From the NCBI GenBank assembly GCA_020350725.1, contig CP070719.1, positions 2,057,855 through 2,121,854 on the forward strand: a stretch of DNA of 64,000 nucleotides, given 5' to 3'. Made by a program: the position numbers and the translations under genes. Every line of letters starts with the position of its first letter. Positions within the stretch are counted from its first letter, which is position 1. This DNA is from a bacterium (GTDB taxonomy: Bacteria > BMS3Abin14). Shown here in pieces: positions 1,857 through 46,737 of this stretch. Below the pieces are notes generated by a model. It saw only the letters and a list, made by a program, of their open reading frames with translations, did no database searches and was not told the DNA's origin.

Positions 1857-1890
1857 GTGTTCGGAACAGATGTTTGTCTATTCCGAACAC
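1857..1890 (-). other. Inverted repeat across the stop of the selenoprotein gene
   Basis: Perfect 10-nt arms GTGTTCGGAA and TTCCGAACAC are separated by 14 nt. One arm encodes the last residues before the stop at 1878-1880. No T-tract follows, so it is not a standard terminator. It may protect the mRNA 3' end or be part of array element 2. Confidence 0.5.
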
Positions 1891-3389
1891 ACCAGCCCCC
1901 GGTCCCGTAAAAAATCAAAATCGTCATCCTGTTCGGGGGTATGGCAGGTCCTGCACATAGTGGCCTTCGGGGTCCTGATCAGTCTGTAGAGCTTCGGTGA
2001 CGAGGCGTGCAGGGAGGCCATTCCATGGCAGGCTTCGCATTGAACCCCCAGCAGGTCCTCCCTGGGCAGGGCCGGAGAGTAGCCGGTCGGCTGCAGATAG
2101 CCGGTGACGTGGCAGGGAAGGCAATCAGGGTCAGCATCGGCTTCCAGGGGGCGAAGGGATTCAATGGCTGTGGCATGATCCGTTCCCTTCCAGAACTCCA
2201 CTCGGCCGCGGTGGCAGTCGATGCAGGTGTCGGTACCGATGTACCTGTCGCGACCGGCATCCGTCACCTCCTCGTACACTTTTCCGACGGCCTCCTCCTT
2301 GAGGGAGAGCCTGTACTCACGGATCATGCCGGCAATCTCCGGATCATCGGGGAAGGATGACGTGAGGGAGATCATGTCTCCCTCATACCGTGTCTTGGAA
2401 AGAAGTTCCTCCAGCTCCCTCTCCAGCTCTTCGTCCCCTCCGCCTCCCCTCTGCAGCCTGCGCCCTTCGATCTGCCTTTTCAGGTAATCGATCCTTCTCC
2501 CGATGGCCCACCCGTCGTGGCCTGGCCCGAGGTCCAGGAGCAGACTCCCGACAGCCCGGCCCTGGAAGTAGCCGGATGTGACGAGAGTGGCGCCGACCTC
2601 CTGGGGGCTCTTCAGCCACGTCTTGGACCTCCCTCCGATGATGACGTCGACACCGCCGCCGACCTCAGCCAGCAGCCTGTCCTGCCGATAGCCGATGTGG
2701 GTCAGGGCGATCACGAGGTCGCATCGTTTTCTCAGGTCGGGGACGATCTCGGAGGCGGCTTTCAGAGGGTCGTCCACCCAAAGCCCCGGAGCCCTTTTCT
2801 CCATGAGGGATATGTCAACCTCCCTCGAGGTCAGACCGAAGATCCCGACCCGGGTCCCTCCTGCCGCTATGATAACGGAGGGTGTGAAGGCGGGCGAGCC
2901 ATCGGCTTTCCTTATGTTGGCCGAGAGAAAGTGGATGTCCGTGGATTGGACCAGCTCGGCCAGGTTGTCCCTGCCGAGATAGAGGTCGAACTCGCCGATG
3001 GCGGCTGCCTGATAGCCCATCCGCTCCATTGCGCGGAGCACCAGACGTGCTTTTCTCATCGTCTGAGTCAGGCCGGCCTCCGTGGGGGGGGTTTCGGAGA
3101 AGAGGTTCCCCGAGTCGAGGATGAGGGTGGGGATCCCGTCTGCGATCTCTCTTTGGATGAATGTGGCGCGGCGGGGCAGACCCCCCACCTGGGCTGTCTT
3201 TCAGCCGCACGGGTCCAGGGCACCGCCCGCATCACCGGTGAAGAGAATCCTCACCGGTCCCACAGCAGTCCGATCCTTCGCCGTACAGCTCCACTGCGAT
3301 ACGGCGAGACCGAGGGCGATGGCGACGGTGAGGACCAGGTGAAAATGGAACCGGGACGGCAGTCTGTCGGCAATGTTCGGACGTGACAT
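1878..3389 (-). CDS. Putative selenoprotein: metallophosphoesterase-like domain with C-terminal tetrahaem cytochrome c
   Basis: The frame is open from ATG 3389 to TAG 1878 except for one TGA at 3201-3203, giving 503 residues if the TGA is read as Sec63. An N-terminal hydrophobic segment (about 15-35) ends in Cys, so the protein is exported and possibly a lipoprotein. Residues about 54-330 resemble UshA/5'-nucleotidase-type proteins. The motif DPCG-Sec followed by GGLPRRAT matches the PCGC...GGL(A/P)RRA pattern I know from cytochrome-linked members, so UGA sits where they carry Cys. Four haem motifs follow: CIDCH (389), CLPCH (423), CEACH (451), CRTCH (479). The canonical GNHE metal motif is degenerate (GEFD). 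GGAGG lies inside the end of the upstream gene, implying coupling. Function is unknown; an exported redox role is inferred. Confidence 0.8.
3170..3203 (-). promoter_or_regulatory. Bacterial SECIS element after in-frame UGA
   Basis: After the UGA (3201-3203) come 18 nt and then GGUCUG (3177-3182) as the apical loop of a 7-bp stem: GGUGGGG (3183-3189) with CCCCGCC (3170-3176), including one U-G pair. As I recall it, E. coli fdhF has the same 18-nt spacing and the same GGUC loop recognised by SelB. No other stop interrupts the frame. Confidence 0.8.
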
Positions 3390-3394
3390 CCCGG

Positions 3395-4588
3395 TCAGAA
3401 CCCTCCTAGTACCTGTCGAATCCCGGGCAACTGTTCCGGGGTGGGAGGGGGAACGAAGGCAATGGACCAGCCCCTGTCCCACAAACTCGTCAGGGCGTTC
3501 ATCAACTCTCCCGGAGGAACGGGCTGGCCGGTCCTCCAGTCCTGCGTCTGGAATTTTAGAATAATCCGGGTCCTGTGTTCAAGGTGGCCTTCTGCAGCAG
3601 CCAGGGACCTCTCCAGGAGGGCGAGGACCCCGGGAAGCCCCAGGCCGAGTTCCTCCTGGATCTGTCGATGGTAGAGCATGACGGCGGTGTAGGTGGGTCC
3701 GTCCCTGAGAGCGGACTTGAGGTCATGGGCAAGCCAGAGCCTTCCGTTCTCCGGATCGGTTATGGTCTCGTAGGTCAGGTTGATGGCCACCTTTATGTCG
3801 CGATTAGCGGCGGTAGCCGACTCTTCCAGCTTCCTGGCGAGGGCCAGGATCCTCTTTGTCTTCCACCCGATCCACGGTTGGAATCGGCGATCGGCCCTGA
3901 GATATCTTCGACCGTCCTCCCCTCGAACCGACCTCAGGTGGCGGTAGGGAAGGGATGTCTCGCCCGTCTCCTTCCGGTAGCGATCCAGGTTCGTCACCGA
4001 GAAACCTTCCGTCATCCTCGAGGCCAGATCGTCCTGAAGCAGGATCCCGTCGACACCGGTAGCTGCCAGGTCCATGAAAAGTCCCTGGAGATATGGTTCC
4101 ACAGCGGCGTTCAGGATGTCCAGGTCGGAGTTCGTCCGCAGGGTGCGGTCCTCCGGGTCAAAGAGGACATCCCGGGGGATGGACGGGTTTCCGAAGCGGG
4201 CTTTCCTGGTGACCATCCAGGCGTACACCTTCATGCCCTCCTCCCTGCAGACGGCAGCGAAGGGGGAGATGATGTCCTGAATGACCGGGGCGCGCTCGGT
4301 TGGAAAATAGACTCCCTGGGCGCCGGAGGGCACAGGACCGGCCGGAAGGTGGGGTCGGTCGCCGGGAAGGTGGAAGGACCGGACAATGACCGTGTCGAAC
4401 CCGGCTCTTCGATAAAGCCGCAGGCGGGACCGGATCGATGGTATGTCCTTCTCTTCGATAACAAGAACCTGGACGGCCCTGACCCTTGACGGGTCCTCGG
4501 CGGGCGGGGCTGAGAGAGCGGGAGCTGTCCACAGGGTCAGGGTGGCCAGGAGGAAAACAGCCGTCCGAACCCTATCCGAAGGCTGCAT
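3395..4588 (-). CDS. Secreted glycoside-hydrolase-like protein (PgaB C-terminal domain type)
   Basis: 397 residues with a signal peptide (about 8-26, ending ALSA). The body looks like the barrel domain of PgaB, the poly-N-acetylglucosamine hydrolase/deacetylase. Supporting motifs are YRRAGFDTVIVRSFH, GMKVYAWM and TGVDGILLQDDL, whose acidic pair matches the conserved catalytic region of that family. The N-terminal deacetylase domain of PgaB is absent. The gene overlaps the end of radA by 17 nt and its last codons supply the SD of the selenoprotein gene. A general exported polysaccharide hydrolase is equally possible. Confidence 0.65.
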   Translation of the reverse strand: MQPSDRVRTAVFLLATLTLWTAPALSAPPAEDPSRVRAVQVLVIEEKDIPSIRSRLRLYRRAGFDTVIVRSFHLPGDRPHLPAGPVPSGAQGVYFPTERAPVIQDIISPFAAVCREEGMKVYAWMVTRKARFGNPSIPRDVLFDPEDRTLRTNSDLDILNAAVEPYLQGLFMDLAATGVDGILLQDDLASRMTEGFSVTNLDRYRKETGETSLPYRHLRSVRGEDGRRYLRADRRFQPWIGWKTKRILALARKLEESATAANRDIKVAINLTYETITDPENGRLWLAHDLKSALRDGPTYTAVMLYHRQIQEELGLGLPGVLALLERSLAAAEGHLEHRTRIILKFQTQDWRTGQPVPPGELMNALTSLWDRGWSIAFVPPPTPEQLPGIRQVLGGF

Positions 4589-46639: not shown

Positions 46640-46737
46640 TGGCGGAAGTGCATGGGAATCGAACCCACCATACCGGGTTTTAGCCGGCATCACTGGATTT
46701 GAAGTCCAGGAGGGCCACCAGTGCCCTGCGCACTTCC
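46640..46737 (-). tRNA. selC: Selenocysteine tRNA (tRNA-Sec, UCA)
   Basis: 98 nt with encoded CCA (46640-46642). The acceptor stem has 8 bp, GGAAGTGC/GCACTTCC, as in bacterial tRNA-Sec. The anticodon loop CTTCAAA carries TCA (46700-46702), which reads UGA. The variable arm is long, between the anticodon stem and the T-arm GGTGGGTTCGATTCCCA. It has its own promoter and terminator. Confidence 0.97.

Follow-up and report, generated by a model that had tools for sequence, protein, structure and literature searches.

Gene and protein layout

We analyzed a 64,000-nucleotide stretch of bacterial DNA (the window), which carries on its minus strand a gene with an in-frame TGA (Table 1). The gene runs from an ATG at 3389-3387 to a TAG at 1880-1878, and translation of 3389-1878 through the TGA gave a joined product of 503 residues with selenocysteine (Sec) at position 63. 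The initial annotation had placed this gene at 1878-3389; those coordinates stood, and we add the minus strand, which had not been given. Around the TGA the protein reads DPCG-U-KTAQVGGLPRR, and the domain following the N-terminal hydrophobic segment begins ...VRILFTGDAGGALDPCG-U-KTAQVGGLPRRATFI....

Table 1. Features of the selenoprotein locus and the tRNA-Sec gene, with positions in the window.
Feature	Positions	Strand	Evidence
UshA-like tetrahaem selenoprotein gene	1878..3389	minus	read-through translation; NF041198 326 bits, cut-off 275
Shine-Dalgarno AGGAGGG, 5' of ATG	3401..3407	minus	sequence
N-terminal hydrophobic signal/anchor helix, residues 12-34, then Cys35	3288..3356	minus	sequence; helix 12-34 in predicted model
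UshA/5'-nucleotidase-fold domain, residues 46-296, most metal ligands lost	2502..3254	minus	PDB profile matches 2z1a, SoxB, UshA; Foldseek; ligand table
UGA for Sec63, motif D-P-C-G-U	3201..3203	minus	TGA in 8/8 same-family members and L048; Cys in 21 distant homologues
SECIS hairpin, 7-bp stem GGUGGGG/CCCCGCC, 6-nt loop GGUCUG at 3177-3182	3170..3189	minus	sequence, bSECIS criteria, codon conservation
Tetrahaem cytochrome c554-type domain	1920..2243	minus	PF13435 E 3.5e-16; motif positions
Four CxxCH motifs	2211-2225, 2109-2123, 2025-2039, 1941-1955	minus	motif positions
tRNA-Sec (selC)	46640..46737	minus	ARAGORN; RF01852 74.2 bits

The N-terminal hydrophobic helix agrees with the earlier proposal of an exported protein, and the 503-residue product is probably exported and membrane-anchored. 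Profile matches of the N-domain to 2z1a (E 3.5e-26), SoxB (E 3.1e-15) and also UshA, together with predicted-fold matches by Foldseek (E down to 8.9e-23; mean pLDDT of the models 68.7 and 81.0), supported the phosphoesterase-like assignment and specified it as UshA-type. Model confidence was low at loop residues 63-65 and in much of the haem domain, with residues 425-455 worst. In the C-terminal domain, CxxCH motifs at residues 389, 423, 451 and 479 and the Pfam match are as expected for the four c-type haems originally proposed. This domain resembles cytochrome c554 (PF13435; PDB 1bvb; E 2.8e-16), but here it is fused to a UshA-type domain.

Membership of a catalogued selenoprotein family

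The window protein matched NF041198, named "UshA-like (seleno)protein, UshA_like_PCGU" in NCBIfam, with 326.2 bits against a curated cut-off of 275 (318.5 bits in the genome search). The match covered two stretches of the 519-position model, 16-272 and 346-518, leaving positions about 273-345 between them unaligned; the haem region lies within the model, at positions about 345-518. A P-C-G-U or P-C-G-C motif was found at the active-site loop of the N-domain in the window protein and its relatives. Given the score, the motif and the haem region, we see no essential difference from NF041198. The related NF049981 (UshA-like (seleno)protein family 2), listed as CxxU (PMC13188914), has a similar UshA-type N-domain, but scored 61 bits against a cut-off of 140, and its 262-position model matched the N-domain only.

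UshA-like CxU selenoproteins were reported in 2008 from Global Ocean Sampling data (PMC2398784), and UshA-like selenoproteins also appear in two reviews (PMC9312934; PMC13188914), the latter naming NF041198. The window protein has its UshA-type domain and CxU motif in common with the UshA-like (COG0737) selenoprotein described by Zhang and Gladyshev (2008; PMC2398784), but that paper names no cytochrome domain (the word "cytochrome" has no occurrence). The suggestion of a new-looking, undescribed family was thus not upheld; the window protein is a new member of the catalogued family NF041198 rather than a new kind of selenoprotein.

Conservation of the in-frame TGA

The source genome is 2.78 Mb in a single contig and is listed as 100% complete. 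We compared twelve genomes of the same phylum, this one included, all from one taxonomic family. An NF041198 gene scoring over the cut-off was present in eight of them, and all eight genes had exactly this TGA. The other seven proteins were 45-59% identical to the window protein and collinear with it on both sides of the TGA, making a sequencing error or a decaying gene very unlikely, and supporting the initial reading of the TGA as lying between two halves of one protein.

Distant homologues came from a scan of genome contigs and belonged to Armatimonadota, Planctomycetota, Myxococcota and one Gammaproteobacterium. Among these 22 members the Sec column held Cys in 21 and a TGA in one (L048), as anticipated by the proposal that Sec replaces the last Cys of a PCGC motif. 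The alignment that had been suggested as a check, of the 503-residue protein with its homologues, showed Cys or Sec in this column without exception. The nine Sec forms clustered on the tree (support 93/83). From these comparisons the gene appears to encode a selenoprotein, with selenium inserted as Sec at the in-frame stop.

Three short C554 paralogues also matched with a TGA or TAG (L011, L024 and L040); they were rejected as selenoproteins, these codons being normal ends after the last haem.

Selenocysteine machinery and the SECIS hairpin

A search of the genome for selA, selB and selD found all three, and the tRNA-Sec gene lies within the window as first noted. Genes selA and selB adjoin each other at about 670 kb, apart from the tRNA-Sec gene. 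Gene selD (G000:C1:1315718-1316350, L081) carries an in-frame TGA of its own (LVQAAG-U-AAKLGP) and is itself a selenoprotein gene. Among the relatives, one genome (G011, 98% complete) has selB and no NF041198 gene over the cut-off; in another (G010, 78% complete), the draft assembly contains the gene with the TGA but no full-length selB.

The hairpin with a GGUCUG loop was seen as described, with 18 nt between UGA and loop. E. coli fdhF has the same loop sequence at the same spacing. Published bSECIS criteria specify a loop of 3-9 nt, a stem of 4-16 bp, a G within the first two loop bases, a distance of 16-37 nt from the UGA and a minimum free energy of at most -7.5 (PMC13188914); the window hairpin, with its 6-nt loop, 7 bp, GG, 18 nt and -16.8 kcal/mol, lies within all of these limits. 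Its stability was not above chance (z -0.66 against dinucleotide shuffles), and in most relatives stability was not significant against synonymous shuffles. Stability alone is unremarkable because the peptide VGGLPRR largely forces the hairpin, and we rejected it as proof of a SECIS element.

Codon usage was more informative. Synonymous codon homogeneity under the hairpin was 0.67 against 0.31 expected, with none of 20,000 amino-acid-matched draws as high; this test used codons of invariant residues in eight relatives that are not independent, and the figure is indicative. Synonymous conservation was about two-fold higher in the hairpin codons than in the rest of the gene. Stem codons GGG and CCC were each kept in 8/8 relatives, and the loop codons varied. 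At one stem pair five relatives had G-C, two had A-U and one had G-U; this single covarying pair was not significant (51 of 500 shuffles were equally good). The useful SECIS signal is synonymous codon conservation rather than stability, and with the published criteria it supports the proposed bacterial SECIS.

These results bear on two other readings of the TGA. Were it an ordinary stop, or a sequencing or assembly error, the reading frames would belong to a broken gene or to two genes, and a GTG start just downstream at 3188 does open a 436-aa frame. That frame, however, has no signal peptide, which haem attachment needs, and the eight separate genomes that share the TGA conserve both halves in frame; with a Sec system in the genome and the codon constraint in the SECIS, we regard this reading as very improbable. 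Near-cognate read-through, with UGA read as another amino acid such as Trp, draws on the open frame only, and would have to contend with a column that is Cys and never Trp in distant homologues, with selC in the window and selA and selB in the genome, and with the SECIS-like hairpin after the UGA; it is more improbable still.

Loss of most metal ligands

The 5'-nucleotidase/SoxB metallophosphoesterases bind their metals through a set of DxH, GD, GNH, H and GHxH/Q ligands. We mapped the UshA metal ligands and catalytic His onto the alignment. The full ligand set was absent from the window protein, which keeps only Asp53 (of DxH) and His231; the other metal-ligand and catalytic-His columns hold Gly55, Asn95, Glu133, Phe134, Arg254 and Lys256. 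Over 30 homologues, Sec and Cys forms alike, the replaced columns varied freely. Invariant in these 30 proteins were C61, G62, C/U63, G69, G70, R73 and the haem residues. This places the conserved function in the haems and in the CGC/U motif, whose loop directly follows the former DxH ligand. The window protein thus shares the fold of SoxB thiosulfohydrolase and the 5'-nucleotidases but differs from them in lacking most dinuclear-metal ligands and in having a CxU motif and four haems.

The protein could still be a metallophosphoesterase, a nucleotidase or SoxB-like hydrolase in which C-G-U binds metal and the haems have another role. Kinship in fold and sequence, the retention of Asp53 and His231 and the capacity of selenolate to ligate metal speak for this, but the majority of metal-ligand positions hold other residues in the Sec and the Cys forms, and conservation centers on CGC/U and the haems, so that we consider it unlikely. 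The initial annotation had left the choice open between a C-x-Sec redox site and a metal site; with most dinuclear-metal ligands lost, we favor redox over metal-dependent hydrolysis, and the suggested metal site is not supported.

Gene neighborhood

In the window lineage, the gene has radA (and in some genomes a GHL13 gene) on one side and dus on the other, housekeeping genes that gave no functional clue in these relatives. In 11 of the 16 Armatimonadota loci examined (L053:798-2429, L056, L057, L058, L059, L060, L061, L065, L067, L068 and L079) and in one planctomycete (L072), an ORF with a CGC motif lies upstream of the Cys-form gene, and its end overlaps or adjoins that gene, an arrangement suggesting a partner protein. 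This ORF was a DUF1573 protein in all three cases tested by profile, and resembles the OS_HP2 (seleno)protein NF041425, below its cut-off. Judging from gene order, the CGC-motif/DUF1573 protein is a possible partner of the Cys form. The source genome also encodes, at another locus, a distant DUF1573-like protein that has a CGC motif (L095). One copy, on a contig labelled as a Methanoregulaceae archaeon (L063), is near-identical around the motif to that of a Fimbriimonadaceae locus (L056), and this contig is probably mis-binned.

Proposed function

Our computational results show the Sec decoding signals, the family, the fold, the loss of metal ligands and the haem motifs. In the mechanism that we propose, the hairpin 18 nt after the UGA at 3203-3201 would direct its decoding by SelB and Sec-tRNA. 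The N-domain keeps its 5'-nucleotidase/SoxB fold and probably no longer binds two catalytic metals; C-G-U on the first active-site loop may form a selenenylsulfide/selenol redox center in their place. Electrons would pass between this C61-U63 center and the C-terminal cytochrome-c554-like domain with its four c-haems. We hold it highly probable, taken as a whole, that this is an UshA-like PCGU selenoprotein with decoded Sec, a retired phosphoesterase fold, a CxU redox center and haems.

The likeliest chemistry is thiol/selenol redox at C61-U63 with electrons passing to or from the haems. Overall, the protein is most likely a periplasmic redox enzyme of the selenol/thiol kind, built on a retired phosphoesterase scaffold and connected to four c-haems. 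Its substrate is perhaps an oxidized thiol or sulfur compound, a selenium compound, or a partner protein. A wider proposal, in which a phosphoesterase scaffold without its metal center became a periplasmic CxU/CxC redox enzyme with a tetrahaem wire, and with a DUF1573-type CGC partner, the product of the upstream gene that overlaps it, at least in Armatimonadota, is tentative, and we put it at somewhat below even chances.

The locus adds to a catalogued family a well-supported, complete-genome example from a poorly sampled bacterial lineage. The conservation pattern, in which metal ligands are gone while CGC/U and haems do not vary, offers a specific hypothesis for the function of this family that can be tested. 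If true, the redox enzyme with a DUF1573-type partner would constitute a new pathway of haem-linked thiol/selenol redox chemistry.
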